Source: Ruminiclostridium papyrosolvens DSM 2782
GTDB taxonomy: Bacteria > Bacillota > Clostridia > Acetivibrionales > DSM-1351
Assembly (NCBI RefSeq): GCF_029318685.1
Contig: NZ_CP119677.1
Coordinates: 4,145,001 to 4,209,000 of the forward strand
Reading direction: 5' to 3'
Length of the DNA: 64,000 nt
Positions 28,191 to 46,580 of this stretch are shown here, one piece after another; position 1 is the stretch's first letter, and each line of letters begins with the position of its first letter. The notes beneath the pieces are model-generated. The model saw nothing but the letters and a program-made list of their open reading frames with translations, searched no databases and was not told where the DNA came from. A program made the position numbers and the translations under genes.

Positions 28191-28202
28191 ATTCTGTAAA
28201 TT

Positions 28203-30491
28203 CTATTCGTTTGACTTTAAAGATGTTACCATGTTGATTTTGCCTATCTTTACACTTAACAAAAGATTAATTAAAAGCGCTCCTCCTGCTACCAGTACCG
28301 AAGCAAGGATATAACTGCTGAAATTAATGTGTGAAAGACAGACTATGGTATCATTTGAAAGAATCTTCATAAAAACGTCAACAAATATTTTTCCAAAAGG
28401 TATGCCTACTACCCACCCGACAAATGAAAGTACGAGGCTTTCTTTAAATGCTAATACCCTTATTTCTACCGGGTATAATCCTATTACTTTTAGTGTTGCA
28501 TATTCCCTCTCCATCTCAGTATAGTTAAGCAGCCCAAGGCTTGATAAAACAACTACTACAAGCAATATTGCAGCAAATAAAAGCACATATATTATTGAAT
28601 TGGTACTATCAAAGACTTTTTGCATTGAATCCCGTTGACTCTCTTTGGTAATAATTTTGGACTCAATATTATCTTTTTTATGGAAATATGAAGCTAAGTT
28701 TTTTTCGTTATTATCAGAAAATAACGCATTTGGTTGAAAATCTTGGTTTAAGTCGCTCCAAGTATTCTTTGAAACAAATAAAACCTTAGGAAGTGAGTTG
28801 ATAACTACTTTACCTATTTTTACATCCCCCCACTTTCCACCTAAAAATCTCCAATTAACGTTATCCCCTTCTTTAACTCCAAGGGTACTTGCAAATTTAT
28901 CTGAAATTACTAACCCTTTTACCTCAGAAATTTTCACTTCATTTCCACTCACGTCTTTCATACGAATAAAGGTTCCATCATCAACAACCGAAAACATTGC
29001 AGTATATTTCTTGCCCTCTTTGTCAGTTCTTATTTCCAGAGTTCCTTCTTGAATATACTGATTAGTACCGCCTATGTCCAAATCCTTTACTTGAGTATAC
29101 GATTTTGTAACTTCTATTTTGTTATTGTATTGATATAAATTATTATAGGTATAGTCTATTGTGTAGTTAAGAGAATCTTTCATGCCTAAGCCCGCCAGAA
29201 TAAGCACCATACTGCCAAGTACACCGACTATGCCCATTATTGAACGAACTTTATTCCTGCTGATATTTCTTATAGTGGATTTGATATTGAGGGACATTCT
29301 ATTCCATAAGAACGGTATCCTCTCCATAAAAGTGTGTTTTCCGATTTTCTGTGCATTTCCTCTCAGAACAAGTGCCGGCATTACTTTGAGCTTACTTCCG
29401 CAAGACATAAGAACAGCAAGTAAACAGCACAAAACCATAACAGCAACTGATACAAAACTGCCAATGGTTAACGGCTTGTCCCAATAGGGAACAATTGCCA
29501 AATGTCTGAAGGACTGAATCAATACTTCGGGAATGGCTTTATAACCTATTACAACTCCCAGGCCTCCTCCAACCAGCCCCATCCATAAACCGTAGCTTAA
29601 ATAATGCAGTCTGATTCTCCTGTTGCTATAACCAATAGACATCAATGTTCCTATCTGTGTCCTCTGATTATCTATTAATCTTGTCATTGTTGTAAGCATT
29701 GTTAATACTGCCAATAAGAAGAATAAAGCCGGAAAAACATATGTAAACTGAGTAAGTTGTCTGATTCTCTCATTGATATGATTTGTACTTGACTGCTCAT
29801 CACGCATCAAATAAGTAACGAATTTATCACCAAGTACGTTTTCAATTTTTTTACTTATCTCACCTTCATTCACTGAATCCCCGTAAGTAACTAAAACCTG
29901 ATTAGCCATATAAAAGCCATATGTATTCGTAAATGTCCTTTTTGACATATACGCGTAACCATTATCTTTGTAATCAGGAATGGCATTTCCTGCAGGTGGG
30001 TCGTAAATCTCTTCAGCACTTAAAATAATACCCTTTATCTTCAGCTCTTTATTGTTTATGGTAACAGAATCTCCAACTTTATAATTATTTGCTTTTGCAA
30101 ATTCATCATCCAGCCATATACCCTCTGCATTAACATCATACTTGGCTCCTGAAACTATATAAGGTTTTGAGATTTCATTGTCATCCGAGACAAATAGTTT
30201 TATTTGGTTCTTTCCGCTGGTAGCATTATATGTCAGTCTGGCTTGAACATCTGTTATACCTTCCATTTTTGAAATCTTGTTCAGCTCCTGAGTCGGGTCA
30301 TCTTTTGTGTAAACCCACATATTGGCCAGATTAACAGTTTTATAGTACTCATCACTGCTCTGAATCAATCCCTGACGTACGCTATCCAAACCTGAAAAAG
30401 TTAACACTCCAAATGTTGCAATAAAGACAATTGTCAAAAACTGAGCTTTATTCTTGATAATGTCCCGCAGCATTTTTTTAGTTAATTCCAT
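28203..30491 (-). CDS. MacB/FtsX-type ABC transporter permease
   Basis: This 762-residue membrane protein has the layout of one N-terminal transmembrane helix, a large extracytoplasmic domain (about residues 45-240), three helices (ending near residue 370), a second helix near 425, a second extracytoplasmic domain, and three C-terminal helices. Both FtsX domains are visible (LFFLLAVLTMLTTMTRLIDNQRTQIGTLMSIGYSNRRI and VVVVLSSLGLLNYTEMEREYATLKVIGLYP). Such permeases move lipids or peptides, or act by mechanotransmission, rather than forming a substrate channel. The ATG directly follows the stop codon of the ATPase gene (TAAATG), so the two are coupled. The substrate is unknown. Confidence 0.9.
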   Translation of the reverse strand: MELTKKMLRDIIKNKAQFLTIVFIATFGVLTFSGLDSVRQGLIQSSDEYYKTVNLANMWVYTKDDPTQELNKISKMEGITDVQARLTYNATSGKNQIKLFVSDDNEISKPYIVSGAKYDVNAEGIWLDDEFAKANNYKVGDSVTINNKELKIKGIILSAEEIYDPPAGNAIPDYKDNGYAYMSKRTFTNTYGFYMANQVLVTYGDSVNEGEISKKIENVLGDKFVTYLMRDEQSSTNHINERIRQLTQFTYVFPALFFLLAVLTMLTTMTRLIDNQRTQIGTLMSIGYSNRRIRLHYLSYGLWMGLVGGGLGVVIGYKAIPEVLIQSFRHLAIVPYWDKPLTIGSFVSVAVMVLCCLLAVLMSCGSKLKVMPALVLRGNAQKIGKHTFMERIPFLWNRMSLNIKSTIRNISRNKVRSIMGIVGVLGSMVLILAGLGMKDSLNYTIDYTYNNLYQYNNKIEVTKSYTQVKDLDIGGTNQYIQEGTLEIRTDKEGKKYTAMFSVVDDGTFIRMKDVSGNEVKISEVKGLVISDKFASTLGVKEGDNVNWRFLGGKWGDVKIGKVVINSLPKVLFVSKNTWSDLNQDFQPNALFSDNNEKNLASYFHKKDNIESKIITKESQRDSMQKVFDSTNSIIYVLLFAAILLVVVVLSSLGLLNYTEMEREYATLKVIGLYPVEIRVLAFKESLVLSFVGWVVGIPFGKIFVDVFMKILSNDTIVCLSHINFSSYILASVLVAGGALLINLLLSVKIGKINMVTSLKSNE

Positions 30492-31205
30492 TTACCACTC
30501 CACTCCTTCCATTGGGATAGGCGTACTATTACATTCAATGCTCGATACCTCTCCATTTCTTAAGTGTACAACCCTGTCCGCCGCCTCTGCAATTACGGAA
30601 TTATGTGTAACAACTATAGCTGTCTGGTTATTTTCTTTACACATTTTATGTAGTGTTACTAAAACCAGCTTACCTGTTTCACTGTCTAAGGCTCCGGTAG
30701 GTTCATCACACAAAAGTATTTTTGGCCTTTTAGCCAAAGCTCTTGCTATGGAAACCCTTTGCTGTTCTCCGCCTGAAAGTTCTGCGGGAAAATGTTTAGC
30801 TCTGTGTGACAGACCAACTAACTCCAATGCATTGCTTTCCAGAGGGTTATCACTAATTCTTCTGGCTATTTCAATATTTTCACTGGCTGTCAGGTTAGGC
30901 AGAAGGTTGTAAAATTGAAACACAAACCCTACTTCTTTCCTGCGATAATCGTTTAATTGTCTGTCGGAGAAGCTTGTAACGTTAGTATTATTAATGACTA
31001 ATGTCCCGGAAGTTGCACGGTCCATACCTCCAAAAAGATTCAATAATGTGCTCTTTCCTGAACCCGAAGGCCCAAGAATAACAGCAAATTCCCCTTTGTT
31101 AATCTCAAAGCTTATATTTTTTATAGCATAAATCTCTTCATCACCTACATTAAACTTCCTTGATAAATTTTCCACTTTTATAAATGGCTCCATCTTTTCA
31201 TGCAC
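30492..31205 (-). CDS. MacB/LolD-type ABC transporter ATP-binding protein
   Basis: This 237-residue ATPase has Walker A GPSGSGKST, signature LSGGEQQRVSIARAL, Walker B ILLCDEPTGALD and H-loop VVTHNSV. The GGMDRATSGTL segment is typical of the LolD/MacB branch that pairs with FtsX-type permeases. It lies 11 bp downstream of an ArsR-family regulator and directly before the permease, forming a three-gene operon. Confidence 0.92.
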   Translation of the reverse strand: MHEKMEPFIKVENLSRKFNVGDEEIYAIKNISFEINKGEFAVILGPSGSGKSTLLNLFGGMDRATSGTLVINNTNVTSFSDRQLNDYRRKEVGFVFQFYNLLPNLTASENIEIARRISDNPLESNALELVGLSHRAKHFPAELSGGEQQRVSIARALAKRPKILLCDEPTGALDSETGKLVLVTLHKMCKENNQTAIVVTHNSVIAEAADRVVHLRNGEVSSIECNSTPIPMEGVEW

Positions 31206-31216
31206 CCCTAAATATA

Positions 31217-31567
31217 TTATTTATTTTCACTGACATGAATAAATCCCTGATCAAAAATATGCTTTACATGTTCATCATCCAGTGAATAAAAAACCGTTTT
31301 GCCTTCTTTTCTATACTTAACTAGTTTGGATTGCTTCAATACTCTTAGTTGATGTGATATTGCCGATTGGTTCATATTAAGGAGAACTGCTATATCACAT
31401 ACACACATTTCTGAAGCAAACAAAGCATATAAAATCTTAATTCTTGTGGTATCACCAAAGACTTTGAAAACCTCTGCCAAATCATACAATTTTTCTTCAT
31501 CAGGCATACTGGCTTTGACTTTATTTACAATATCCTGGTGTATTGCAATACAATCACACTTAATCAT
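31217..31567 (-). CDS. ArsR/SmtB-family metal-responsive repressor (CadC-like)
   Basis: This is a winged-helix repressor of about 116 residues. DTTRIKILYALFASEMCVCDIA followed by NMNQSAISHQLRVLKQSKLV is the ArsR core, with the CVC pair of the alpha-3 metal site. An N-terminal CDC (KCDCIAIH) and a C-terminal DxH...H pattern (DDEHVKHIFDQGFIH) add ligands of CadC and alpha-5 type. I prefer the ATG at 31567 (AAAGG upstream); a TTG at 31585 has a stronger AGGAGG. The ATG at 31606 falls inside the operator. It should bind the palindrome at 31605-31624 and release it on binding zinc, cadmium or lead, so it controls itself and the ABC system. Confidence 0.88.
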   Translation of the reverse strand: MIKCDCIAIHQDIVNKVKASMPDEEKLYDLAEVFKVFGDTTRIKILYALFASEMCVCDIAVLLNMNQSAISHQLRVLKQSKLVKYRKEGKTVFYSLDDEHVKHIFDQGFIHVSENK

Positions 31568-31604
31568 CTCGCCTTTCCCGTTCAAATACATCCCTCCTAA
31601 ATAC

Positions 31605-31624
31605 ATATTAACATTTGTTCATAT
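31605..31624. promoter_or_regulatory. ArsR/SmtB-type operator
   Basis: ATATTAACA-TT-TGTTCATAT is a 9-2-9 palindrome with one mismatch. It closely resembles the ATATGAACA..TGTTCATAT sites of SmtB/CzrA-type repressors. It lies just downstream of the predicted transcription start, where bound repressor would block transcription. Confidence 0.8.
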
Positions 31625-31635
31625 ATTCACATTTA

Positions 31636-31664
31636 ATTATATATTACCATATTTATCAAATCAA
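31636..31664 (-). promoter_or_regulatory. Promoter of the arsR-ABC operon
   Basis: On the minus strand TTGATT (31664-31659) and TATAAT (31641-31636) are 17 bases apart. The operator begins about 5-10 bases after the expected start point. Confidence 0.75.
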
Positions 31665-31678
31665 GCCTTTTAAAGGAT

Positions 31679-32902
31679 TTAAAATAAGTTGTTAAAAAAT
31701 CCATCATAAAATTCCGGCGGCAGCCCTTCAACTATGTATTTTTCTGCTACAGTTTTACTAAGCTGGGTGTCCAGCGGAATTTTGCCTGTGTCAATTCCCA
31801 TATCCTGAATTATTCTTCCTATTTTTCTGCCATAGCAAGTTCTGCCTGCACATTTAAAAAATTGGGACATATCCTCCAGAACATCTTTTACTGTATCTTG
31901 GGTAATGTCTCCAAATGATAAAGGAACAGCAACACAAGGCGTATATGCTCCGTCATTATTTAAAGTCAAGTAATAGATTCCTGCCGAACATCCCATACAT
32001 TTTGCACTTTCAAACTCACTGAATAAGACAACATTGGGATAATCGGGATTGTTAATATATTTTTCCTTGATATCCATTATCATTCTCTTGGCTACTTTAT
32101 AATTCATCTTGCAATCCATTCCTTCAATTTTCCCCTGTGGAATAGGTAAGACAATCCTTATCTCCTGAATGCCTAATTCCGATACAAACTTAAAATACTC
32201 TTCTATCTCATCAGTTGTAAAACTGTCAATAATACATATTGTTACTACAGTATAAATATTGTTTGCCTGCAGTACTTTAATAGCCTCTAAGGACTCTTGA
32301 AAAGCATTCTTACTATCTCTGGTTTTAACCACTACTTCCTCTTTGTAATGATCCAGACTTATAATAACCCTGCTGACATTGCTGTTACTTAAAAACTTGC
32401 AAAACTCATCATCAATCTTATGCCCCGTAGTATACAACTGGGCTTGCATACCCTCCGGAATAAAACTGATAATATCCTTGATATCATTTCTAAGCATAGG
32501 CTCTCCCCCGGTAATGCCAATATTGGCAACGCCAAGTTCATAGGTCTGTTCAATAAAGGATTTAACTGATTCAAGACTTAAATCATATCTACTGCTTTTA
32601 TTTCTATAGCAGTGCCAGCAATTACAGTGGCACCGCCCCGTAACAACAACATCACTTTGAAACAACTTTCTTTCCCCTTTTTTTATACTGTCCAGAGTAT
32701 CCATTGCTTTATCCCAAGCTTTAGATGGAATAGCAGGTAAAAAGCTATTAATAAAATACTGTTTTTTTGCTGAATCATAGGTAAGTTTAAAACCCTTTTT
32801 CTTTAAAAACTTTGCAAAATACTGTCCTGCTTCTGTGTTATTTGCTTCCGAAACAATCCTGTATATTTCATCTTCATTGATAATTTTCTTGAAATTACTC
32901 AT
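31679..32902 (-). CDS. Radical SAM/SPASM enzyme of the NRPS cluster
   Basis: This 407-residue protein has an N-terminal helical region of about 75 residues, then a radical SAM core. The cluster motif CHCNCWHC (CxxxCxxC, about residues 90-98) is followed by GITGGEPMLRND, the GGEP SAM-binding motif. C-terminal cysteines (KCMGCSAGIYYLTLNNDGAYTPCVA and KCAGRTCYG) indicate a SPASM-like auxiliary iron-sulfur region. It is the last gene of the ligase-ACP-NRPS operon, 33 bp after the NRPS. SPASM enzymes usually modify peptides; here the substrate could be the carrier-bound or released thiazoline product. The reaction is unknown. Confidence 0.87.
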   Translation of the reverse strand: MSNFKKIINEDEIYRIVSEANNTEAGQYFAKFLKKKGFKLTYDSAKKQYFINSFLPAIPSKAWDKAMDTLDSIKKGERKLFQSDVVVTGRCHCNCWHCYRNKSSRYDLSLESVKSFIEQTYELGVANIGITGGEPMLRNDIKDIISFIPEGMQAQLYTTGHKIDDEFCKFLSNSNVSRVIISLDHYKEEVVVKTRDSKNAFQESLEAIKVLQANNIYTVVTICIIDSFTTDEIEEYFKFVSELGIQEIRIVLPIPQGKIEGMDCKMNYKVAKRMIMDIKEKYINNPDYPNVVLFSEFESAKCMGCSAGIYYLTLNNDGAYTPCVAVPLSFGDITQDTVKDVLEDMSQFFKCAGRTCYGRKIGRIIQDMGIDTGKIPLDTQLSKTVAEKYIVEGLPPEFYDGFFNNLF

Positions 32903-32935
32903 GCTATAAGCCTCCTTTTATTTATTAATCTCTCA

Positions 32936-35900
32936 TTAAGCATCGGGAATGGTTTTTGCTATTCTATTTACAATCCGTAACATGTCAGCACTCCTTTTTG
33001 AATCCATCTTTCCCCATTCAAATCCGTAATTTCTTAATACAGTCTCAGTCCTTTTACAGGTTGGCAGAATCAGCATGGTTGGGTCAAAAGACTTTTCAAG
33101 AAGACCCAGATTAATTATCTCAGCTACCAAATGATTGTACTTTTTGCCACCGTTGACTAAGTGCTTCTCAAAGTCGTCGATTGATTGAATCTTAACCTCA
33201 TCTGAAAGTTCATTAAATAACTGTGCAAAATCAACCAGGCTAATTTTATTGGGATTAAATATGTGATAAATATTACTTTCTTCTTTTACACCTAATAACA
33301 ATGCTATAGCCTCTGCCGCCTGATCAACAAAAGTTAAATCAAATATTTTTGCATCAAGATCAGGGACTGAGCCCAGCTTCATCATCATACTCAAAACAGA
33401 GAATATTGAACTTTCTCCTTCATTTGTTTGAAATATTCCCTCTTGATAACTTTGAACCAAAAATCCCAAACGGTAGATTTTTACGTTGATACCTTCATTT
33501 TGAGCTGATAAAGTTATATCCTCTGCGTAAATTTTAGATTGAGCGTATGCTATTTCGGACCTATCCCCATGCGTTATGTCATACTCGGTAAACAAATTCT
33601 TATTTTCATACCTGCTGACAGAGAAGCCTGTAGATATGGTAGATATGTAATGAAGCTCCTTCTTATTCTTGTACTTGGAGAACTCTGTTATTCTGCGTGT
33701 TCCGTCAATATTGATTCTTTGATAATCCTCCCATAAGCCATAATGATTTATGATAGCTGCCGAATGAATTACACAGTCTGTCTTTTCTGCCAGAGAATCA
33801 AATTCTGCCTGACTAAGTCCAAAATTAACTTGACTTATATCGCCGACTATAATTGAAACTCTGTCAGAGTATTCATGAATATAATCCTTTTCTTTAAAGT
33901 AATGACTCCATGTTCTTTTTAATCTGTCTTTTGCACTATTTTCATTTTCGCCTCGTACAAGTATGTAAACTTTTGATTGGGTTTTTAACAATAGCTCTCT
34001 TATGAGATGACTTCCAAGAAAGCCTGTCCCTCCCGTTATAAAAATATTGTTATAGGCTACCCCCTCTTGTAGCTGTATTTCTTTAAAGCCTTCTGCATAT
34101 TCCTTATAATCTTTTTCATAGTTTATATCAGGTCTATAATTTGCCAGTGAATCCATGGTCTTTCTCAGTTTGGCAATATTATCTTCGGCGATACTGGATG
34201 AACGGCTTACATATGGAGCCAAACTAAGTATCGTTGTATACTTATACATATCCTCTAAAGAAATTCTGATTCCAAGCTCACTGGCCTTGGTAATTACCTT
34301 AATTACATTTAGTGAATCTCCTCCCAAATCAAAGAAATCTTCATTAATTCCTACCTTGTCAAGGTTAAGTACTTCCTGCCAAAGTCGAACCAGTTCCATT
34401 TCAATGTCATTCCCGGGAGCCATGTAGTTAGTTTCACATTGCTTAATTTCAGGCTTGGGGAGAATTTTCTTATTTACTTTTCCATTTGAGGTTAAAGGAA
34501 TTTCTTCAACTTCTACATATTGTCTTGGAACCATATAATCGGGTAAATATGTTGCAGCCCAGTCAGACAATACATCGCAGGTAAATGTACTGTTTGAAAC
34601 AATATATGCGCATAAAAATACTTTTCCGTTTTCATCTTTATAGTCAATTACTGCTGCATTTTCAACAGCTTCATGTCTTATAAGAACGCTTTCTATTTCT
34701 CCAAGCTCAATTCTATGGCCTCTGATTTTTACCTGCTGGTCTTTACGACCCTTAAATTCTATATACCCATTTCTATTCATTACTCCAAAGTCGCCTGTCC
34801 TGTATACCCTTCCAAAGCTTTTATGCTCAATAAACGCAGCTTTGGTTTTATCTATATCCTTCTGATAGCCTATGGCAACTCCAATGCCCCCTATGTATAA
34901 TTCACCCATAACTCCAACGGGACATAGCTCAAGATTATTGTCCAGAACATAGAACATCTGATTTGCTAAAGGATACCCGTAAGGAATACTTGTCCAATTC
35001 TCATCCACCCTATCAATCGGATAATGAATTGACCAAATGGATGCCTCGGTAGCACCGCCTAAGCTATATATTTTCACCTGAGAATTTTTACCTCTGATTT
35101 TGTCAGGAAGAGACACAGGTATCCAATCTCCGCTTAGCATGACAACCCGCAATGTCCCACTGGCACTATGGCATTTATTCTCTTCAATTCTATGTAATTC
35201 ATCAATATATAGCTCCATAATTGCAGGCACAGTATTCCATACAGTGATTTTTTCATTTGTAACAATATCTATAAGTTCGGGTATATTTCTTGCATTGCCT
35301 GCAATATACAACTCTGCTCCTGCCAATATGCTTCCAAATATATCGTATACGGATAAGTCAAAACAAAAAGAGGATATTCCAATCACTTTATCATTTTCTG
35401 TTATGCTGTATCTGGAATTAATATCCATGATTGTATTGCAGACAGCTTCATTTGAGATAACAACTCCTTTAGGCTCTCCGGTACTGCCAGAGGTATAAAT
35501 AACATATGCAATATCAGTTGTCCGTGCTTTTTTATCCGAATCAAACCTCTTGCAGGTATCTTCTGTAATGCTGTGAACGTAAGCAGGCTCCAGCATCTTT
35601 TTGCACCCGCTATGTTGGTAAATATAGTTTTGTCTTTCTTTTGGATGCTCAGGATTTATTGGAACGTATGCCGCCCCCGATTTAATTACTCCAAGAATAT
35701 TTATCACTGTTTCAGCACATCTTGCTGCACTGACACCAACAAAATCTCCCGGGCCTATACCTTCGGATTGTAAAGATATCGCTATACGGTCTGTCAGCAA
35801 GTCCAACTCTTTATATGTAAATGACGAATTTCCATCTTTAACAGCAACCTTATGGGTGTGGGTTTCAAAGGCTTTGGACACAATATTCTGAAGCGTTGTT

Positions 35901-37303
35901 TTTTGAGTGTTGCAAATTGTATCATTGTACTTTTGAATTAGTTTTTTATCTTTGTCACTTAACTCAAATATCTCTTTTGAATAAGAGCCGTCAGGTTTAA
36001 TGCTTAGCACCAGTTCTTCATATTGCCTGAACATGGTTTCTATCAATTCTTCCTCAAATGCCTCCTCCACATAGTCCCATGTCATGAGCAACTTGCCGCT
36101 TATGTCCATAACCTGACAATCTAAAAGAACTTGGGGAGTTTGGCTTATTCCATATTTCAACTCTCCAAACTTGTCCAAAAGGCTGAATTTTTCATCATTA
36201 AAAATCATACTGGTAAAAACAATTGGCATAACAGCAGATGTTCCAAGTCCTCTGGCCTTGGATAACTCTTTTAGAAACTCCATTCCGTCAAAGGAGCTAT
36301 GCCTATAGGAAGCTGCAAACAAATCCCTGATGGCTGTTGCATTCTCCCAAAAATCGTCTTTTGAAATATCCCTTCTATATATGGGCAACAGCAATGCCTT
36401 CGTAAAATCTCCTATAACTCTGCTTATACTCTTATCATGCTTGGAACGACCTGTTATTGCCGAATTCAAAGTAAAGGAATCCTGATTACACCAACGCTCA
36501 AGTACCATAGCATAGGCTGTACAAAGAAGGATTGTGGGGGGTATTTTCTTTTCCTCTGCCATCTCTTTTATCTTTCCCCATGAACTGCTGTCAACAGTTG
36601 TTCCCAACCTTTTAAATTTAGGCAGTAATATTTTTTTATTTGATTTCAAAGGTAATTGAGGAGCTGACGGAAACTCTGTTAATTGCTCCATCCAAAAGTT
36701 TCTGTCTGTTTCATACCTTTTAGTCTTTTTTATATCCGTTAATTTATAAACATAATCTCTAAACGATGAATCTAAAGGTATTGGTTCAGTTTCTAAATCA
36801 TAGCAATCCATTACTTCATTTATTAAAACAATTAAACTCCCTGCATCAGCAATAAGCATATCAAAGTCACAAAACATGTATACTTTATCGCATTCTAATT
36901 GTGCCATTTTTATGTCAAATAAGGGCCAAGTATCAATCTTAAATACATGATGGGACATTTCTTCTCTTTTATATAATATGAATTCCTGCTTTTTCTCATT
37001 TGATAAATTAGTCAGGTCAAATCGTTCTACAATATAATCATTGACTTCTTCCAGTATTCTTTGCTGCCCTGTTTCTTCAATTACAGCTCTTAACATAGGC
37101 TGATTTTTAATAAGCTTATTAAGTGCCTTGTTAAATTTACCTATATCAAGATTATTTTCAAATTCATAATAAATGTGAGTTGACCGGCCTCCAAGCTCAA
37201 ATACGGGATTTCGTCCCATTAAATAAGCAGTCTGAACATTTGTTAGTGGAAAAACATTATTATCTTTACTCTTTTCATCTATACCCACGACAAATTCCCC
37301 CAT
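32936..37303 (-). CDS. One-module NRPS: Cy-A(Cys)-PCP-reductase
   Basis: This 1455-residue synthetase opens with a heterocyclisation (Cy) domain: FPLTNVQTAYLMGR near residue 18, the DxxxxDxxS-type box FDMLIADAGS near 148, IGDFTKALLLP and ISQTPQVLLD. The adenylation domain (about 460-960, YTSGSTGEPKG near 604) has pocket residues I read as D-L-Y-N-M-S-L-I-W-K, a cysteine code. A carrier domain has its serine in LGGDSLNV near 994. The C-terminal reductase has the NAD(P)H loop TGGTGFLGSHL near 1090 and the YAQSK pair. It should condense an acyl donor with cysteine, cyclise to a thiazoline and release an aldehyde or alcohol. The donor probably comes from the adjacent ACP and ligase. Confidence 0.92.
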   Translation of the reverse strand: MGEFVVGIDEKSKDNNVFPLTNVQTAYLMGRNPVFELGGRSTHIYYEFENNLDIGKFNKALNKLIKNQPMLRAVIEETGQQRILEEVNDYIVERFDLTNLSNEKKQEFILYKREEMSHHVFKIDTWPLFDIKMAQLECDKVYMFCDFDMLIADAGSLIVLINEVMDCYDLETEPIPLDSSFRDYVYKLTDIKKTKRYETDRNFWMEQLTEFPSAPQLPLKSNKKILLPKFKRLGTTVDSSSWGKIKEMAEEKKIPPTILLCTAYAMVLERWCNQDSFTLNSAITGRSKHDKSISRVIGDFTKALLLPIYRRDISKDDFWENATAIRDLFAASYRHSSFDGMEFLKELSKARGLGTSAVMPIVFTSMIFNDEKFSLLDKFGELKYGISQTPQVLLDCQVMDISGKLLMTWDYVEEAFEEELIETMFRQYEELVLSIKPDGSYSKEIFELSDKDKKLIQKYNDTICNTQKTTLQNIVSKAFETHTHKVAVKDGNSSFTYKELDLLTDRIAISLQSEGIGPGDFVGVSAARCAETVINILGVIKSGAAYVPINPEHPKERQNYIYQHSGCKKMLEPAYVHSITEDTCKRFDSDKKARTTDIAYVIYTSGSTGEPKGVVISNEAVCNTIMDINSRYSITENDKVIGISSFCFDLSVYDIFGSILAGAELYIAGNARNIPELIDIVTNEKITVWNTVPAIMELYIDELHRIEENKCHSASGTLRVVMLSGDWIPVSLPDKIRGKNSQVKIYSLGGATEASIWSIHYPIDRVDENWTSIPYGYPLANQMFYVLDNNLELCPVGVMGELYIGGIGVAIGYQKDIDKTKAAFIEHKSFGRVYRTGDFGVMNRNGYIEFKGRKDQQVKIRGHRIELGEIESVLIRHEAVENAAVIDYKDENGKVFLCAYIVSNSTFTCDVLSDWAATYLPDYMVPRQYVEVEEIPLTSNGKVNKKILPKPEIKQCETNYMAPGNDIEMELVRLWQEVLNLDKVGINEDFFDLGGDSLNVIKVITKASELGIRISLEDMYKYTTILSLAPYVSRSSSIAEDNIAKLRKTMDSLANYRPDINYEKDYKEYAEGFKEIQLQEGVAYNNIFITGGTGFLGSHLIRELLLKTQSKVYILVRGENENSAKDRLKRTWSHYFKEKDYIHEYSDRVSIIVGDISQVNFGLSQAEFDSLAEKTDCVIHSAAIINHYGLWEDYQRINIDGTRRITEFSKYKNKKELHYISTISTGFSVSRYENKNLFTEYDITHGDRSEIAYAQSKIYAEDITLSAQNEGINVKIYRLGFLVQSYQEGIFQTNEGESSIFSVLSMMMKLGSVPDLDAKIFDLTFVDQAAEAIALLLGVKEESNIYHIFNPNKISLVDFAQLFNELSDEVKIQSIDDFEKHLVNGGKKYNHLVAEIINLGLLEKSFDPTMLILPTCKRTETVLRNYGFEWGKMDSKRSADMLRIVNRIAKTIPDA

Positions 37304-37312
37304 TACTCTTTA

Positions 37313-37546
37313 TTAATCCTTTTGAGTTCTTTCAGACAAATAGGTCTTAATATCACTAAAGGTTTGTATGTTCCATAAATCTCTATCATTAATTTCAACC
37401 CCAAATTCATCTTCTAAATCAATAACCAAATCCACCAAATCCATTGAATCAAGACCTAAGTCCCCCACCAGCCTGGATTCGTCATTAATTTTATCAATGC
37501 CCACCTCCGCGTACCTTGCCAATATTTCTTTGATTTTCTCAATCAT
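37313..37546 (-). CDS. Stand-alone acyl/aryl carrier protein
   Basis: This 77-residue carrier protein has the phosphopantetheine serine in GDLGLDSMDLVDL near residue 34. Size and acidic helices match a free ACP. It lies 9 bp before the NRPS and 13 bp after the adenylate ligase, so it should be the acceptor for the ligase and the donor for the Cy domain. The NRPS has no upstream carrier of its own, which makes this ACP functionally necessary. The acyl group carried is unknown. Confidence 0.92.
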   Translation of the reverse strand: MIEKIKEILARYAEVGIDKINDESRLVGDLGLDSMDLVDLVIDLEDEFGVEINDRDLWNIQTFSDIKTYLSERTQKD

Positions 37547-37559
37547 GTTTCTTCTCCCC

Positions 37560-39173
37560 TTATCTTTTTATTTTATTAGTAGTAGTTTTTTCGAACTCAT
37601 TAGCTCGAAGCTTTATTTTTTGTATTTGTTTAAACATAGGCAGTAGTGAATTAATTTCTTTTATTTCTTTTGAAATTACAGCTTCAATTTCTTCAATATC
37701 CCTGCCCTCAAAAAGGTCATAATTCGGATAAATTTCAGCTTTAATAACGTCATCTTCACCGAATACAATAACCTCATTTATACAATCCAGTGCCAGTAGT
37801 TTGCCTTCAAGTTCTTCAGGGCTTACATTTTCCCCATTACTAAGCACTAAAAGGTTTTTTTTCCTACCTGTAATATACAGGTATCCATTTTTGCCGATAT
37901 ATCCAAGGTCACCTGTCTTAAACCAGCCATTTTCCATACAAGCTTCCGTAACTTCAGGATTTTTATAATACCCTTTCATTACATTCTTACCTTTGACCCA
38001 AATCTCATTGTCAACAATTTTTACACTACAGCCCCCACCAATCTTGCCAACGGAGCCACGCTCCCCATTCCTATCAGTATTTGCCGAAACCAGAGGAGAA
38101 CACTCTGTAATACCATATCCTTGTATTAGTTTTATCCCCATTGTTGTATAAAAATCAATTATCTCAACGGGCAGAAATGCACCTCCACAGACAAAAGTTC
38201 TAATATTTCCTCCAAGTACTTCAAGAATCTCTCCAAATAATTTTCGGCTGACATTAATATGGACCTTTTTTAGTATTTTAGTGATTTTCATTGCAGAACT
38301 GAACTTCTCATTTTTGTTTTGATTTGCAACCGCCTTTAATATCTCTTTCCTCAGCATCTCCAAAACTGCCGGTACCACAATCATTATTGTAGGTTTATAC
38401 GTCTTTAAATTTCTCTTCATCATTTTTAAGCTATCATTCAAGCAAATTGTTGCCCCGAAATAAATAGGTGTTAATATTCCAGCTGTTAATTCATATGTAT
38501 GATTGTTTGGCAAAATAGACAGGAGAATGTCCGTAACAGATACATCAATAACCTGGCTGCAATATGCAATATTGCTTGCAAGGTTCTCATGTGTTAATAC
38601 AATTGCCTTACTGTTTGAAGTTGTTCCTGATGAGAATACGATTTCAGCAGCAGTATCAGGTGATATCTCTGATTTAATATCTTTATGAGGAGTTTTCAGC
38701 ATGTCATACAAACAATGCATGTTATCGGATTTTTCATTGAAGTTCACGAAGTACTTTATGCTTCCTACAAATTCCTTTATTTTTAATGCAACGTCATGAT
38801 AATCATTATCAAATAGTAAGCAGTCCGCATCAACAAATTGAAGCTGCTCAATTATGGCCTCAACAGGTAATAATTTATCTATGGGAATAGCTACATACCC
38901 GGCATTCATAACGCCTAAGTACGACACCATCCATTCATAAGATGTTTTCCCTAAGATTGCAATATGCTTTTTCTCAAAATGCCATTCACTAAGTGCAGCT
39001 TCAAGAGATAAAATATCATCGAATACTTCCTTATATCTCTTCCCGTATGAAGTTCCATTTTTATTAAACTTAAATAGAATATTATCAGCATGATTGCTTA
39101 AACAAGTGTTCAGATATTCATGTATATTTTTAAATTGTTTCCGCTCAGTATAAAAAAAATTTCTTTTTTCCAT
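37560..39173 (-). CDS. Acyl-adenylate ligase loading the ACP (FadD/AMP-ligase type)
   Basis: This 537-residue ANL-superfamily enzyme has the phosphate loop FSSGTTSNSKAIVLTHENL near residue 180, GYGITECSP near 355, the hinge region KTGDLGYIGKNGYLYITGRKKNLLVLSNGENVSPEELE and a C-terminal Lys-containing end (ETTTNKIKR). It is closest in feel to long-chain fatty-acid ligases. It should adenylate a carboxylic acid (fatty or aryl) and transfer it to the adjacent ACP. It is the first gene of the cluster, behind a long AT-rich leader with AAGGAAG upstream of its ATG. A broken copy of its N-terminal part occurs at 56069-56151. Confidence 0.88.
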   Translation of the reverse strand: MEKRNFFYTERKQFKNIHEYLNTCLSNHADNILFKFNKNGTSYGKRYKEVFDDILSLEAALSEWHFEKKHIAILGKTSYEWMVSYLGVMNAGYVAIPIDKLLPVEAIIEQLQFVDADCLLFDNDYHDVALKIKEFVGSIKYFVNFNEKSDNMHCLYDMLKTPHKDIKSEISPDTAAEIVFSSGTTSNSKAIVLTHENLASNIAYCSQVIDVSVTDILLSILPNNHTYELTAGILTPIYFGATICLNDSLKMMKRNLKTYKPTIMIVVPAVLEMLRKEILKAVANQNKNEKFSSAMKITKILKKVHINVSRKLFGEILEVLGGNIRTFVCGGAFLPVEIIDFYTTMGIKLIQGYGITECSPLVSANTDRNGERGSVGKIGGGCSVKIVDNEIWVKGKNVMKGYYKNPEVTEACMENGWFKTGDLGYIGKNGYLYITGRKKNLLVLSNGENVSPEELEGKLLALDCINEVIVFGEDDVIKAEIYPNYDLFEGRDIEEIEAVISKEIKEINSLLPMFKQIQKIKLRANEFEKTTTNKIKR

Positions 39174-39323
39174 TATTAAATACTCTTCCTTATTAAAAAA
39201 TTATAAATTCCTGTAATACATTTATTTGAAGTGCGACCTTAAACATACTATCCATGGACATCATTTTCATTTTATAGATTTTATGTAAATATAATAATTA
39301 TTTTCCATATTTGTTATAATAAT

Positions 39324-39352
39324 AATTTATATTATTTGTAGACTGCTGTCAA
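39324..39352 (-). promoter_or_regulatory. Likely promoter of the NRPS cluster
   Basis: On the minus strand a perfect TTGACA (39352-39347) is followed, 15-17 bases on, by TATAAATT, a fair -10 region. The leader to the ligase would be about 145 bases and is AT-rich. I found no riboswitch in it. The remainder of 39174-39413 shows no gene. Confidence 0.5.
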
Positions 39353-39413
39353 TTTATTTTGAATGATAGACTTAAATGGTAATTTTTGTAACATATGATT
39401 ATTTTTAATTTAA

Positions 39414-39455
39414 TTGACATTCGCAAATAACGCATGTTACTATTAACCTATGTTA
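39414..39455 (+). promoter_or_regulatory. PadR-gene promoter with two TAAC-N4-GTTA dyads
   Basis: TTGACA (39414-39419) and TACTAT (39438-39443) are 18 bases apart. Two identical-format dyads TAAC-GCAT-GTTA (39428-39439) and TAAC-CTAT-GTTA (39444-39455) flank and overlap the -10 box, spaced 16 bp centre to centre. A partial third copy (TAACATATGATTA) lies near 39389. The placement fits autorepression by the PadR protein. Confidence 0.65.
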
Positions 39456-39476
39456 TTAGTAAATGAGGTGTAGTTA

Positions 39477-40400
39477 ATGTCAATTCAATTAGCAATATTA
39501 GGAATACTGAGTTGGAGACCATCAACAGGCTATGAGCTTAAAAAGATTTTTGAGGATTCTTCTTTCATGTATTGGTCAGGTAACAATAATCAAATATACA
39601 AAGCTCTAACCAATCTTGAAGACGAGGGTTTTGTTACAAATGAATTAATCCATCAGGACAACTCTCCTTCAAAAAAAATATATACCATAACGGAAGACGG
39701 ACTCAAAGAACTTAAAAATTGGCTTTTGTCATCGCCGGAGGCTCCTGAGATAAAGAAGACATTTTTAGTACAGTTTGCATGGTCGGATATATTGAGTAAT
39801 GAAGAACTAAGTGAGCTGCTCTCAAAATATGAAAATGAAATAAAGCTGCAATTAATTATGGAAAAAGAAAAATACAGACGCGCTCTTCATTCACCTAACC
39901 GAAGCGCCAGAGAAGGCTTAATATGGGAAATGATTTCGGAAAATATTATTTCAACCTACAAAAATGAACTTAATTGGGTGCAAGCAACACGTCAGAAATT
40001 GCTTGCAAATAAAGCAGAGGAGGAAAAAGACAAAATGAATTATGAAATAAGAGAAATAGGAAACAAAAAATATATTGAAGTGGTTTCTGCCACTGAACCT
40101 TTAAGTTCAGAAAATACCGCACTTGATTTGATTGCTCTATGCTGGGAACACGAGTGTAATGCACTAATGATACACTACGAAGCCTTATCGGAAGACTTCT
40201 TTAAACTTAAAACAAAAGTAGCCGGCAGTATTATTCAAAAATTTGTAAACTATGGCATTAAAGCTGCTGCTATTGTTCCTCAAGAGCCACTTCAAAAAGG
40301 CCGTTTTAAAGAAATGGCCTCGGAAACCAACAAAGGTAATCACTTCAGACTGTATGAAAGTAAAGAAGAAGCTGAAAAATGGCTGTTGGAGCTTTACTAA
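39477..40400 (+). CDS. PadR-family regulator with C-terminal DUF4180 domain
   Basis: This 307-residue protein has an N-terminal PadR winged helix (ILGILSWRPSTGYELKKIF, IYKALTNLEDEGFV) and the PadR-AlphaHelical dimerisation region to about residue 180. A linker leads to a DUF4180 domain (about 190-307: LDLIALCWEHECNALMIHYEALSEDFFKLKTKVAGSIIQKFVNYGIKAA and NKGNHFRLYES). DUF4180 probably acts as a ligand-sensing domain, though its ligand is not known. GAGGTG lies 7 bases before the ATG. It is divergent from the NRPS cluster and is its likely regulator. Its last 25 codons are duplicated at 56178-56256. Confidence 0.87.
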   Translation: MSIQLAILGILSWRPSTGYELKKIFEDSSFMYWSGNNNQIYKALTNLEDEGFVTNELIHQDNSPSKKIYTITEDGLKELKNWLLSSPEAPEIKKTFLVQFAWSDILSNEELSELLSKYENEIKLQLIMEKEKYRRALHSPNRSAREGLIWEMISENIISTYKNELNWVQATRQKLLANKAEEEKDKMNYEIREIGNKKYIEVVSATEPLSSENTALDLIALCWEHECNALMIHYEALSEDFFKLKTKVAGSIIQKFVNYGIKAAAIVPQEPLQKGRFKEMASETNKGNHFRLYESKEEAEKWLLELY

Positions 40401-40850: not shown

Positions 40851-42458
40851 TTATCCCAAATACTTTTTTAAAGTTGCCCGAACAGCTCCAGGACCTGTTA
40901 ACATTTCACCAAACATGTTCTGGATGCGCTCACCCATACCGATGGCATATAGGTCCGAGCCGAAAATATTCACGTTAGACAGTATGCTTGACAGGCTGGG
41001 TATAGGTCCACCAAGGGTTGCACCGCCCAATTTCGCTTGAAGTTCCTCCAGCATTGGGTCCGGGCTCAAATTCATAGACTTTCCTACATCATCCACAGCA
41101 AGAAGATACCTACACCAGGCTGCAATGGCCAGAGAAATACCCGTTAGTTTTTCAATCTTCAATGTTTCGTTTTCCACATAAGATTTTATCGTTTCCCCAA
41201 AACGGATTCCCACTTTTTGTGAGGTATCTGTTGCAATTCTCATGGTAGTATCAGGAATATAAGGGTTTGTAAACCTTTTGTAGAATACTTCATCCAGAAA
41301 TTCCTTCGGACTGATTATTTCAGGATCTACCACTACCGGCAGTCCTTCTACATAGCCGATCCGCTCAACCAAGCGTGATATATCTTTATCCTTTACAGCT
41401 TCAAATACCATGGTATATCCTAAAAGCCAGCCAACAATGGCAATAGCGGTATGTAAAGGATTCAAACAAGTAGTCACTTTCATGGTTTCAATCTTATTTA
41501 CAGTTACACGGTCTGTAAGCCAAATGCCCTTGGCCTTTTCAAGAGGGAAGCGGCCATTGGGAAAATCGTCCTCAATAAAGAGGTACTGGCTGACTTCAGA
41601 GTTAACAAAGGGCGCAATATAGGTGTTCTTGCTGGTAACAACAACTCCCATATTCTCGACGCCTTTAGCTTCAATGGCTTTCTGGATGTCTTCTGAAGGT
41701 CTGGGAGTAATTCTGTCGATCATTGACCATGGGAAGGATACGGTTTTTCCGTCCTTCAAGTAAGCTACAAAGCCTTCCTCTACATAGCCCTTGGCTAGCC
41801 AGGCCTCTGCAATGGTAAGCACTGCGGCACAAAGCTTTTCTCCATTTTTTGCACAATTGTCAGTGCTGACCAATGCAACAGGATACTTGCCTGCCAGATA
41901 CCTTTTGTGCATTAGTGCCACCAATCTGCTCATGACATGAATGGGTGCCTCTAAACCGTTTTCGATATCGCTTTGAATGACTCCCAGGAAATTTCTTGCA
42001 CTGTCGCGAACCGCATAGCCTTTTTCCGTAATGGTAAATGTAACCATTTTGAGAGAAGGCTGCTGGAATACCCAGACCAACCGGTTCCATTCCTCTGTGC
42101 GGGACGGATTTCCCACGATTGCTTCGCCGATGCTTGCAATAACCTTCATGTCGAGACTTCCATCAGCATCCGCAAGAACATTGAGTGTCAACATATCATA
42201 TTTTCTATAAACATTGTCAATTATTTCTTCGTCAAAGGTTTCTACTGCTATTATTCCTGTTTCTGCAGTACCTGCTTCCAGTAATTCCTGATGGCAGGCC
42301 GACATGAAGCCTCGGAATATATTTCCTGCACCGAAATGTACCCATTCCGGAAAACTTGCGGTCTTTTTCAGCATTGCATCCACATCAAATTTTGGTATCT
42401 CAATGCCTGATTTCTGCCATGCTACTGTATTTTTTAGACTTTCCCTGCTCAGTTTCAT
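40851..42458 (-). CDS. uxuB: D-mannonate oxidoreductase / fructuronate reductase
   Basis: This 535-residue member of the long-chain mannitol dehydrogenase family interconverts D-fructuronate and D-mannonate with NAD(H). The N-terminal nucleotide site is seen in FPEWVHFGAGNIFRGF. The catalytic region includes LVSTDNCAKNGEKL and KIETMKVTTCLNPLHTAIA, with the Lys and Asn-x-x-His of the family. Its ATG overlaps the stop of uxuA by 4 bases, so the two are co-translated. That pairing supports the uxuB assignment over mannitol or altronate dehydrogenases. Confidence 0.9.
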   Translation of the reverse strand: MKLSRESLKNTVAWQKSGIEIPKFDVDAMLKKTASFPEWVHFGAGNIFRGFMSACHQELLEAGTAETGIIAVETFDEEIIDNVYRKYDMLTLNVLADADGSLDMKVIASIGEAIVGNPSRTEEWNRLVWVFQQPSLKMVTFTITEKGYAVRDSARNFLGVIQSDIENGLEAPIHVMSRLVALMHKRYLAGKYPVALVSTDNCAKNGEKLCAAVLTIAEAWLAKGYVEEGFVAYLKDGKTVSFPWSMIDRITPRPSEDIQKAIEAKGVENMGVVVTSKNTYIAPFVNSEVSQYLFIEDDFPNGRFPLEKAKGIWLTDRVTVNKIETMKVTTCLNPLHTAIAIVGWLLGYTMVFEAVKDKDISRLVERIGYVEGLPVVVDPEIISPKEFLDEVFYKRFTNPYIPDTTMRIATDTSQKVGIRFGETIKSYVENETLKIEKLTGISLAIAAWCRYLLAVDDVGKSMNLSPDPMLEELQAKLGGATLGGPIPSLSSILSNVNIFGSDLYAIGMGERIQNMFGEMLTGPGAVRATLKKYLG

Positions 42459-43534
42459 ACCTTTTTTCTCCTTTCCAGTTCATAGGCATCCCATAGACCT
42501 AGAAGATACATTACTCCCAAAGCACGGTCGTACATGCCGTAACCGGGACGGCAGAATTTTTCTTCTCCCCAGATATGACGGCCATGATCGGGGCGTGTAT
42601 ATCCTTTAAATCCAATCTCATGATATGCCTTTACAATCTTATCTACAGGAACGCTTCCGTCACTGGTACGGTGGGAGGTTTCAATAAAATCCCCGTTATC
42701 AAAACACTTGACGTTTCTGATATGGGCAAAGTGAATCCTATCACCGAATTCGCGGATCATTGCCGGAATATCATTAGCCGGGCTTGCACCCAACGAACCT
42801 GAGCACAATGTGAGACCATTGTAAGGGCTGTCTACCAACTTCAAGAAACGGCGGATATGTTCACTGCTGCGGATAATACGCGGTAATCCATAAATAGGCT
42901 GAGGTGGATCATCCGGATGGATAGCCATCTTCACATCACATTCTTCACATACGGGTATTATGCGTTCCAGAAAATACTTACAGTTCTCTGTAAGCTTTTC
43001 TTCGTCAATACCCTTATATGCATCAAAAAGTTCTTCGATTTTCGCCAAACGCTCAGGTTCCCAACCAGGCATGGTAAAATCCGATCCCTTTTCAAGAACT
43101 CTGTCTATCAGTTCCTTTGGAGGCAGTTCTGCCTTTTTCTTATCATAAAAGAGTGCATTGGAACCATCGGGCATTTCATTGTACAGGTCGGTACGTACCC
43201 AGTCAAATACAGGCATAAAGTTATAGCATATGACTTTCACGCCCACCTTTGCCAGTTTTCTGATTGTGTCAATATAGATATCAATATATTTGTCCCTTTC
43301 CGGTGACCCTATCTTAATAGAATCATGGATATTTACACTTTCTACCACTTCCGGATGAAAACCATAGCTACGGATTAGGTCCGCCTCCGCTTCGATTCTT
43401 TCAAGTTCCCAAACTTCACCGGCCAATTTATCATGCAAAGACCACACAATTCCCTCTACTCCGGGGATTTGTCTGATTTGTTCCAGTGTTACGCTGTCAT
43501 TTCCAACACCATACCATCGCCATGTCATTTTCAT
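42455..43534 (-). CDS. uxuA: Mannonate dehydratase
   Basis: This 359-residue TIM-barrel enzyme dehydrates D-mannonate to 2-keto-3-deoxygluconate and is metal dependent. Characteristic segments are MTWRWYGVGNDSVTLEQIRQIPGV at the start, YNFMPVFDWVRTDL, MAIHPDDPPQPIYGLPRI and HIRNVKCFDNGDFIETSHRTSDG with conserved His, Cys and Asp ligands. AGGAGAG precedes the ATG. With uxuB it forms a two-gene uronate catabolic operon. The downstream kinase and aldolase are not in the window. Confidence 0.95.
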   Translation of the reverse strand: MKMTWRWYGVGNDSVTLEQIRQIPGVEGIVWSLHDKLAGEVWELERIEAEADLIRSYGFHPEVVESVNIHDSIKIGSPERDKYIDIYIDTIRKLAKVGVKVICYNFMPVFDWVRTDLYNEMPDGSNALFYDKKKAELPPKELIDRVLEKGSDFTMPGWEPERLAKIEELFDAYKGIDEEKLTENCKYFLERIIPVCEECDVKMAIHPDDPPQPIYGLPRIIRSSEHIRRFLKLVDSPYNGLTLCSGSLGASPANDIPAMIREFGDRIHFAHIRNVKCFDNGDFIETSHRTSDGSVPVDKIVKAYHEIGFKGYTRPDHGRHIWGEEKFCRPGYGMYDRALGVMYLLGLWDAYELERRKKV

Positions 43535-43615
43535 AGTAGTACTCTCCTAATCTTATTTATTTTCAGCTACCAGTTTTCCTTAAAATATATTTTATTGAAA
43601 TACCCGTCCTCCATC

Positions 43616-43771
43616 TTAAAAGCTCTGTTTATTAACCGTCAAAGCAATATTTCTGGCAGAAGCAATTTTTTCATCCCTCCCCCTCTTATTCCTTTTATAG
43701 TTACTTCCAATCCTATCTGCAGTAATTATAGCTGCAGCCACAGTCTCTACCGATACAGGATACAAACGGAG
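43616..43771 (-). other. In-frame open stretch after the Gfo/Idh stop codon
   Basis: After the TAG that ends the oxidoreductase gene, the same frame stays open for about 51 codons to a TAA at 43616. It encodes a plausible-looking sequence (VETVAAAIITADRIGSNY, RDEKIASARNIALTVNK). It may be the remnant of a deleted gene or a lost C-terminal extension. I do not recognise the family. The rest of the gap to uxuA (43535-43615) shows only a poor promoter candidate. Confidence 0.35.
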
Positions 43772-44785
43772 CTAACCCACTTCCACATAATCTTTTATTT
43801 TGTGAGAAACATACATAGCATTTACAATTTTTATAGCTTTCAATGCCTCATTTCCGTCTACTTCAAAATGCTGTCCCTCAGGCAGTTTCTTATAAAAGTC
43901 ATGCACAAGTGCTTTATGACCACAACCCCAGTAAGCTTTTTCGCCATTGGCTTTTTCATCGTCGGAAATATGCTCGATATCACCATTGGAATATTTAATC
44001 GTGACATCTCCTTCCATTCTTATAACAGCTTTTTCGCATACTATTTCAAGCATAACAACCGAATCTAAGGGATAGCCATTGGTAGCATAAAAAAATGCTG
44101 TTGCGCCACTTTTGAATTTTATAGTTGCTTCCGCAGTGTCTTCAACTTCTATAACATTCTTCAAAAACCTCGTATCAATGGAAGCCTTGATAGTGTCAAT
44201 ATCGCCCATAAACCATTGCAACAAATCCAGCGTGTGAATTGCCTGATTTATAAGTAATCCGCCGCCTTCGGTTTCCCATTTGCCTCTCCACTTATCCCTT
44301 GAATAGTATTCCGCACCTCTATGCCAGGTTACAAATGCTCTAGCACCCAGAACCCTACCCGTTTTTCCGGTGTTCAGAATTTCTTTGACTCTTCTCGATG
44401 TATGATTAAAACGGTTTTGAAAGCTTACCCCCAGCATCCGCCCGGTCTGTTTGGATACTCGTACCATTTCCAGTGCGTCTGAAACAGATATCGCCATTGG
44501 CTTTTCAGTTAGTACGTGTTTGCCTGCCTTCATTGCCTCTATAGCCATTGGAGCATGAAGATAATGTGGCGTACAGATGTGAACGACATCAATAGTATCA
44601 CTTTTCAACAGCTCTTGATATTGGGCAAACACTTGACATCTATGCTTTTGTTTCATTTCTAATGTCTTACTGCTATCAATATCACATACTGCGTAGAGAT
44701 TTGCATTATGACAACTCAATATGGCGGCTTCATGCATAGAAGCTATGTTGCCGCATCCTATTATGGCAGAATTCAGTTTTTTCAT
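43772..44785 (-). CDS. Gfo/Idh/MocA-family oxidoreductase
   Basis: This 337-residue NAD(P)-dependent sugar oxidoreductase starts at the ATG at 44785, which has AAAGGAG upstream; an in-frame extension to 44827 has no such site. The Rossmann loop is AIIGCGNIASMHEAAIL, and EKPMAISVSDALEM carries the catalytic-site EKP lysine. The second half (GGGLLINQAIHTLDLLQWFMGD) is the family's substrate domain with the conserved H/D pair. It follows the histidine kinase by about 50 bp. It probably oxidises or epimerises a sugar or sugar acid taken up by the locus. Confidence 0.87.
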   Translation of the reverse strand: MKKLNSAIIGCGNIASMHEAAILSCHNANLYAVCDIDSSKTLEMKQKHRCQVFAQYQELLKSDTIDVVHICTPHYLHAPMAIEAMKAGKHVLTEKPMAISVSDALEMVRVSKQTGRMLGVSFQNRFNHTSRRVKEILNTGKTGRVLGARAFVTWHRGAEYYSRDKWRGKWETEGGGLLINQAIHTLDLLQWFMGDIDTIKASIDTRFLKNVIEVEDTAEATIKFKSGATAFFYATNGYPLDSVVMLEIVCEKAVIRMEGDVTIKYSNGDIEHISDDEKANGEKAYWGCGHKALVHDFYKKLPEGQHFEVDGNEALKAIKIVNAMYVSHKIKDYVEVG

Positions 44786-44836
44786 CTTATTACTCCTTTC
44801 TGATTTATATTTAATATCACTCTGCATAACTATCTG

Positions 44837-46576: not shown

Positions 46577-46580
46577 TTAA

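Follow-up and report, generated by a model that had tools for sequence, protein, structure and literature searches.

A candidate acyl-cysteine biosynthesis and export cassette with a radical SAM enzyme in Ruminiclostridium papyrosolvens DSM 2782

The single-contig genome (5,027,861 bp) of the cellulose-degrading anaerobe Ruminiclostridium papyrosolvens DSM 2782 contains, within the 64,000-nucleotide stretch of NZ_CP119677.1 analyzed here (hereafter the window), a block of seven genes in the order FtsX permease, ABC transporter ATPase, ArsR regulator, radical S-adenosylmethionine enzyme (rSAM), nonribosomal peptide synthetase (NRPS), acyl carrier protein (ACP), and ligase. By a slight preference, we read this block, together with the whole of the pathway proposed below, as a transferable cassette that makes and exports a small product built from an acyl group and cysteine. 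Window positions 28101 to 39227 align with genome G007 (locus L069) as a single uninterrupted block of 11.1 kb at 89.6% identity, running from FtsX through the ligase, and G007 was the only one of ten congeners searched in which the block was found. Genome G006 lacks the block at this site: its PadR region lies 233 bp from the sequence by which the insertion is followed in G007, which makes the locus an empty site. The seven genes are 88 to 98% identical to their G007 orthologs with dN/dS values of 0.02 to 0.12, and the arrangement is therefore neither a chance one nor a decayed one.

An earlier note, made from the DNA sequence, had described four of these genes, namely the ligase, the ACP, an NRPS of Cy-A-PCP-R type, and a SPASM-type rSAM, with intervening gaps of 13, 9, and 33 bp. 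Open reading frames and matches to Pfam and NCBIfam confirm both the genes and the gaps. The four-gene extent proved too small, as the ArsR, ABC, and FtsX genes co-move with the biosynthetic genes in the alignment with G007. Spacing between genes of the block, all of which lie on the minus strand, is 0 to 72 bp, with 72 bp between the ArsR and rSAM operons. The added genes encode an ArsR/SmtB metalloregulator (31217-31606; NF033788 at 102.8 bits against a cut-off of 55), a LolD/MacB-like ABC transporter ATPase (30492-31205), and a 762 amino acid FtsX/MacB-type permease (28203-30491); the latter two were assigned from family matches, and the permease is the probable product exporter. Searches of the window with Rfam at gathering thresholds and with tRNA scans returned no matches.

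In the proposed pathway, the ligase would activate a carboxylic acid, for which a fatty acid is the likeliest candidate, and load the free ACP, on which the rSAM would radically modify the acyl chain by oxidation, desaturation, or bond formation. The adenylation domain of the NRPS would load Cys onto its carrier domain, the heterocyclization domain would condense the acyl group with Cys and close a thiazoline, and the reductase domain would free the product as an aldehyde or alcohol. ABC-FtsX would then export it, the transporter genes being under the ArsR/SmtB metal-type repressor. Activation, heterocyclization, and release would draw on well-known families. The sequences themselves show the identities of genes and domains, the Cys pocket, the co-movement, and the link between the rSAM clade and ACP and KASIII-like genes; we infer the substrates, the stage of the rSAM step, the form in which the product is released, its export, and the metal response.

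Acyl loading, cysteine cyclization, and release

The single-module NRPS (1455 amino acids, 32936-37303, minus strand) matches the Condensation, AMP-binding, PP-binding, and NAD_binding_4 families of Pfam and carries the NRPS core motifs. It comprises heterocyclization (Cy, 35984-37258), adenylation (A, 34454-35872), peptidyl carrier protein (PCP, 34211-34411, with the motif GGDSL), and thioester reductase (R, 32996-34048) domains. Among PDB entries it is most similar to BmdB, the bacillamide synthetase, whose Cys module aligns over residues 16 to 1034 with 877 bits. In the Cy domain, the motif DMLIADAGS at residue 148 presents DxxxxDxxS in place of HHxxxDG, and FTSM and TPQVLLD retain the Thr and Asp aligned with those of BmdB, which we take to be catalytic. 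The A domain, placed by Pfam and by alignment with BmdB, has the pocket DLYNMSLIWK when read at what we presume to be the ten code positions and the Lys, and this pocket matches that of the BmdB Cys module except for M in place of L at one position. The earlier assignment of cysteine, drawn from the Cy motifs and the pocket, is supported by the sequence. The R domain (PF07993 at 171.7 bits; TIGR01746 at 207.3 bits, under its cut-off of 213.35) carries the NAD(P) motif TGGTGFLG and a YxxxK motif, YAQSK. R domains release an aldehyde or alcohol (PMC12403116). A first scan of genome contigs with the NRPS as query returned no relative, and among 391 class genomes no further full-length NRPS of this kind was found; the class, order, and phylum genome sets used for the NRPS and the rSAM overlap and include the organism's own genome.

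Directly upstream are the genes for a free-standing ACP of 77 amino acids (37313-37546, minus strand; PF00550, with GLDSMDLV) and an acyl-AMP ligase of 537 amino acids (37560-39173, minus strand; PF00501 and PF23562). In NCBIfam, the ACP comes closest to carrier proteins that serve fatty acid synthesis, at one bit under cut-off. For both ACP and ligase all NCBIfam models among the matches listed fall under cut-off, and no equivalog model was reached, among those matches, for the NRPS, rSAM, ACP, or ligase. The ligase is probably an acyl-ACP synthetase that loads the adjacent ACP, and ligase-ACP adjacency recurs at three other loci (L111, L081, and L082). The latter two come from two other clostridial genomes, where the ligase-ACP pair (8356-10262 in L081, 8248-10140 in L082) stands beside a gene for 353 to 372 amino acids, with no match to the window's NRPS or rSAM within the 18 kb read. 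The product had been expected to be an acyl- or aryl-thiazoline aldehyde or alcohol; of this, the predicted acyl-thiazoline formation and reductive release are well supported by the sequence, and an aryl acid is less likely because the ACP is of fatty acid type and the ligase resembles fatty acid CoA ligases.

The radical SAM enzyme and the contexts of its clade

The rSAM (407 amino acids, 31679-32902, minus strand; Radical_SAM and SPASM in Pfam, the latter barely passing at 22.7 bits against a cut-off of 21.5) has the motif CX3CX2C at C91, C95, and C98, an extra C93 that is invariant among the close relatives aligned, and auxiliary Cys residues at 305, 323, and 356 that are invariant in 48 sequences. 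Its AlphaFold2 model (pLDDT 92.9, pTM 0.93) has SkfB, SuiB, and BlsE among its top fold matches, with TM scores of 0.55 to 0.59, and on this model the protein appears to be a member of the superfamily with differences of its own. No close relative was found in 391 class genomes, which gave nine distant matches (26 to 29% identity, E<=1e-25), or in 58 order genomes, and a search of 239 phylum genomes with the clade alignment added a single relative, at 31% identity, in G627. When nine aligned rSAMs were used to scan named genomes, 473 relatives were found. Among the best 80 of these 473, which were kept, four are 44 to 49% identical to the window's rSAM (46 to 52% by BLASTP) and the rest at most 34%. 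A fifth close relative, at 44.5%, lies on a Haliovirga plasmid (L210). In a tree of 82 rows (11 from elsewhere and 71 of the 77 loci with an rSAM frame, six odd or truncated ones being omitted), the rSAMs of the window, G007, and these five loci (L110, L111, L112, L113, and L210) form one clade with support of 100/100. Among the distant homologs, those at L077 (8755-10062) and L078 (8282-9586) lack the CX3CX2C cysteines and keep the C-terminal motif, and are pseudo-radical-SAM proteins. Another distant rSAM lies in a four-gene operon (L075, 5720-9161) with two small proteins without a Pfam match and a GMC-type oxidoreductase; the gene order is similar at L073, L074, and L076 (Pfam was run on L075 only).

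The contexts of the clade bear on the substrate of the rSAM. Pseudoramibacter alactolyticus (L112) and Pseudobutyrivibrio xylanivorans (L113) have operons of TetR, rSAM, a KASIII-like protein, ACP, ABC, and FtsX, and an Epulonipiscium metagenome-assembled genome (L111) has ligase, ACP, rSAM, and an ABC ATPase without FtsX on a contig of 3.45 kb. In Chlorobaculum (L110), rSAM is followed by a KASIII-like gene, with no match to an ACP or exporter within 10 kb on each side; the Haliovirga plasmid has TetR, rSAM, a KASIII-like gene, and other transporters, and no annotated ACP. Across the seven clade loci, an ACP lies one or two genes from the rSAM in five (the window, G007, L111, L112, and L113), a KASIII-like gene directly follows it in four (L110, L112, L113, and L210), and one or both are present in all seven. 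An NRPS was seen in two, both from Ruminiclostridium; none was found by BLAST with the window's NRPS within 10 kb on each side in L110, L112, and L113, or, judged by annotation, within 12 kb on each side in L210. BLAST with the window's ACP over all frames of the 80 loci kept matched only L111, L112, L113, and L161. With profiles applied within 8 kb, an ACP was found in three of four clade loci versus one of 73 more distant rSAM loci, and a KASIII-like protein in three of four versus none of 73. Because members of the clade had gone into these profiles, the clade matches are built in, and information comes from the control loci alone. The KASIII-like proteins retain the FabH Cys (SGCxGFG, 4/4) and lack the PHQA and GNT motifs, which suggests an acyltransferase rather than a decarboxylating synthase.

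The exporter shows a similar association. In a tree of 22 permeases, the FtsX proteins of the window, G007, L112, and L113 group with one other, L192 from G005 (SH-aLRT 97), and an ACP gene lies within about 7 kb at all five loci of this subclade, versus neither of the two permeases outside it whose context was read (G004 and G241). Around L192 (region L214), the ACP gene keeps company with genes for a ketosynthase and for an N-acyl amino acid synthase of FeeM type. This cluster from a member of the same genus (L214, 2029-11384), with the order ABC-FtsX-ACP-ketosynthase-FeeM-like-ThiF, is a probable N-acyl amino acid pathway. So far, then, the FtsX subclade appears to go with ACP-dependent synthesis of acylated small molecules (5/5), and we infer from co-movement that ABC-FtsX exports the product of the present block.

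The earlier suggestion that the rSAM possibly modifies the thiazoline product was not supported, as ACP genes, KASIII-like genes, or both accompany the clade at loci that showed no NRPS, and these contexts led us to downgrade the rSAM as a product-tailoring partner of the NRPS. The rSAM probably acts on an ACP-bound acyl chain, with the NRPS as an added offloading module; we place it at the acyl-ACP stage because the partners of its clade are ACP and KASIII-like genes. Tentatively, and as a reading that we hold to be possible rather than probable, the clade may be a new rSAM subfamily that modifies acyl chains on a free ACP in anaerobes of three phyla. For loading or offloading it would be served by exchangeable partners (a ligase, an acyltransferase resembling KASIII, or an NRPS of Cy-A-PCP-R type), in many cases together with an ABC-FtsX exporter of its own. 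By analogy, it might do without oxygen what the Fe(II) oxidase does in isonitrile lipopeptide synthesis. Several points weigh against the cassette reading as a whole. The rSAM clade comprises only seven loci, no ACP appears in what was read of L110 and L210, the context of L210 comes from an annotation that the collection calls incomplete, and L111 is a contig of 3.45 kb on either side of which an NRPS could lie. Among the 73 control loci, short contigs are frequent. The association with an ACP gene is not proof that the ACP carries the substrate of the rSAM, and SkfB and SuiB, the solved structures closest in fold, are peptide-modifying enzymes. As for the exporter, the FtsX grouping holds one locus without an rSAM and the tree needs two changes, and wider context was read for 7 of the 22 permeases.

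Regulation and competing explanations

The ArsR protein, whose true start may be a later ATG, has the residues CDC, EMCVCD, and DxHx10HxxE, which resemble those of CadC/SmtB and which, with the motif definitions used, we assume to be metal binding. It is 62 to 77% identical to paralogs that adjoin P1B-type metal ATPases at all four loci read (the ATPases were confirmed by Pfam in L106 and L107 and by matching neighbors in L108 and L109). Upstream of ArsR-ABC-FtsX is a promoter-like site, TTGATT-17-TATAAT (31636-31664, minus strand), that is kept in G007. A CadC/SmtB-like operator candidate (31605-31624, minus strand; 8 of 10 positions paired) lies over the ArsR start region and is the sole match of its kind in the window, where 0.16 was expected with a pattern chosen after the region had been viewed. 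This palindrome is not conserved in G007, and with the pattern being post hoc we downgraded it as proof of metal control. The biosynthetic genes had been placed behind one promoter, and a site, TTGACA-17-TAAATT (39324-39352, minus strand), was indeed found ahead of them by sequence scan; a single promoter is only plausible, given 65 promoter-like matches versus 50.9 (standard deviation 6.1) in shuffles, and the same stretch lies upstream of a thioesterase gene in G007.

We speculated that the product could be a metallophore or metal-detoxification ligand, made or exported under metal control, which we judge a live but minority explanation. Cys thiazolines bind metals, and the CadC/SmtB-type ArsR with paralogs beside metal ATPases co-moves with the cluster. 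The gene logic also resembles that of mycobacterial copper-binding isonitrile lipopeptides (PMC9600254). However, the block has no uptake receptor, the operator candidate is not conserved in G007, and ArsR proteins may also sense other thiol reagents. SmtB/CadC repressors leave DNA under metal excess, which is the wrong sign for acquisition.

Another explanation, which we regard as rather unlikely, is that the rSAM replaces the flavin oxidase BmdC as an oxygen-independent thiazoline oxidase, or otherwise modifies the PCP-bound heterocycle. SPASM-type rSAMs are capable of two-electron oxidations, and no flavin oxidase was found among the genes of the block. BmdC acts on the NRPS-bound thiazoline (PMC8795117). 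However, thiazoline is unlikely as the shared substrate of the clade because five other members (L110, L111, L112, L113, and L210) occur at loci where no NRPS was seen, although a recruited rSAM could have changed in function despite its clade.

That ArsR-ABC-FtsX is an unrelated metal- or drug-responsive exporter merely adjoining the NRPS operon seems improbable to us. It has its own promoter-like site and the 72-bp separation, and the permease has relatives in many genomes (75 of the 382 searched in the class, at E<=1e-60). However, the conserved block is uninterrupted from FtsX to the ligase and is absent at the G006 site, and an ABC-FtsX of the same subclade stands beside rSAM-ACP genes in Pseudoramibacter and Pseudobutyrivibrio; the Epulonipiscium genome has an ABC ATPase and no FtsX there. 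Finally, we rejected as very improbable the idea that the rSAM is a maturase of ribosomally synthesized and post-translationally modified peptides unconnected with the NRPS: for all its SPASM domain and top fold matches to SkfB and SuiB, the gaps of 0 to 72 bp leave no room for a precursor gene and the block has none, ACP and KASIII-like partners recur across the clade, and the models for such maturases among the 25 NCBIfam families listed are far under cut-off.

Insertion site, related systems, and significance

Beside the ligase end of the block lies a PadR-DUF4180 regulator gene (39477-40400, plus strand), a chromosomal neighbor by Pfam and alignment that we no longer count as a cluster gene, as PadR-DUF4180 is also found at the block-free site in G006. 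In G007, the intact PadR gene (4431-5403 of L069) is found at the opposite side of the block, and a decayed second copy (17409-17994) marks the far end, so that a host gene stands as a direct repeat on either side of the cassette, which may have entered by recombination at PadR. G007 has a type II thioesterase gene (PF00975; L069 16621-17322) ahead of the ligase that is missing from the window, where the corresponding interval (39228-39254) is about 27 bp versus about 808 bp in G007; four thioesterase-like genes, of 26 to 37% identity, lie elsewhere in the genome of R. papyrosolvens. At 56068-56263 of the window, 82 bp of the 5' part of the ligase gene (88% identity) adjoin an 85-bp piece of the terminal PadR region (98%). 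This decayed second copy, 16 kb from the ligase-PadR junction, suggests that the junction was duplicated long ago. Genes of sugar-acid catabolism and transport (40851-54827; mannonate dehydratase, mannitol-type dehydrogenase, and solute-binding protein), ordinary for this host, also adjoin the cluster.

Aryl-thiazoline alcohols and siderophores such as pyochelin, aerugine, and the pulicatins are formed by Cys heterocyclization, in some cases with reductive release; in contrast, the present cluster has a fatty-acid-type ACP and ligase and no salicylate enzymes or aryl carrier protein. In isonitrile lipopeptide clusters, an ACP and an R domain occur together with an oxidase of the acyl chain, and the NRPS uses Lys or Orn, versus Cys here. 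The block shows the ScoA-E type of arrangement, with an acyl ligase, an ACP, and a single-module NRPS ending in R, but with Cy rather than a condensation (C) domain and an rSAM instead of the Fe(II)/2-oxoglutarate oxidase. A ScoE-type Fe(II)/2-oxoglutarate isonitrile synthase is not among the seven genes of the block, the rest of the genome lying outside this search, and membership of the isonitrile lipopeptide group was rejected on the lack of this gene in the block. The combination of acyl ligase and NRPS and the link to metal are otherwise like those of the Sco/Mma and mycobacterial nrp/fadD10 clusters (PMC9600254).

The Cys module of BmdB (PDB ID: 7ly4; PMC8795117) is alike in its Cy-A-PCP order, its Cys pocket, bar the one conservative change, and its Cy Thr and Asp. 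BmdB carries a further module ahead of this one and a C domain at its C-terminus, and it works with a flavin oxidase, whereas the present system would have an acyl-ACP donor and has an R domain. Neither BmdA (Trp decarboxylase) nor BmdC of the bacillamide pathway is among the block's genes. The SPASM maturases of SkfB/SuiB type (PDB IDs: 6efn and 5v1q) share with the rSAM their fold (TM of about 0.57 to 0.59) and the auxiliary-cluster region, but the fold alignment gives at most 19% identity, and here there is no precursor peptide and the partner is an ACP. Also close are the operons of L112 and L113, with an rSAM of the same clade, an ACP, and an exporter of the same subclade; they differ in having a KASIII-like protein for the ligase and NRPS and TetR for ArsR. 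Clusters of C. papyrosolvens containing polyketide synthases are listed in PMC3250452. In our literature search, the scope of which mostly excluded subscription journals, no paper's title or abstract start concerned this cluster.

As a whole, the system may be a variant of the NRPS-R lipo-thiazoline kind, in which the pairing of rSAM and ACP may represent a new enzyme subfamily. To our knowledge, few NRPS products of strict anaerobes have been described, and we know of none for which a SPASM rSAM is coupled to a free acyl-ACP and a Cys-cyclizing, reductively releasing module. If the rSAM does act on acyl-ACP, it would provide an oxygen-free route to functionalized lipids. The combination of rSAM, ACP, and ABC-FtsX would then be a genetic handle for finding related signals or ligands that anaerobes of gut and soil export, including those loci of the clade that show no NRPS nearby and that NRPS-based mining would miss.

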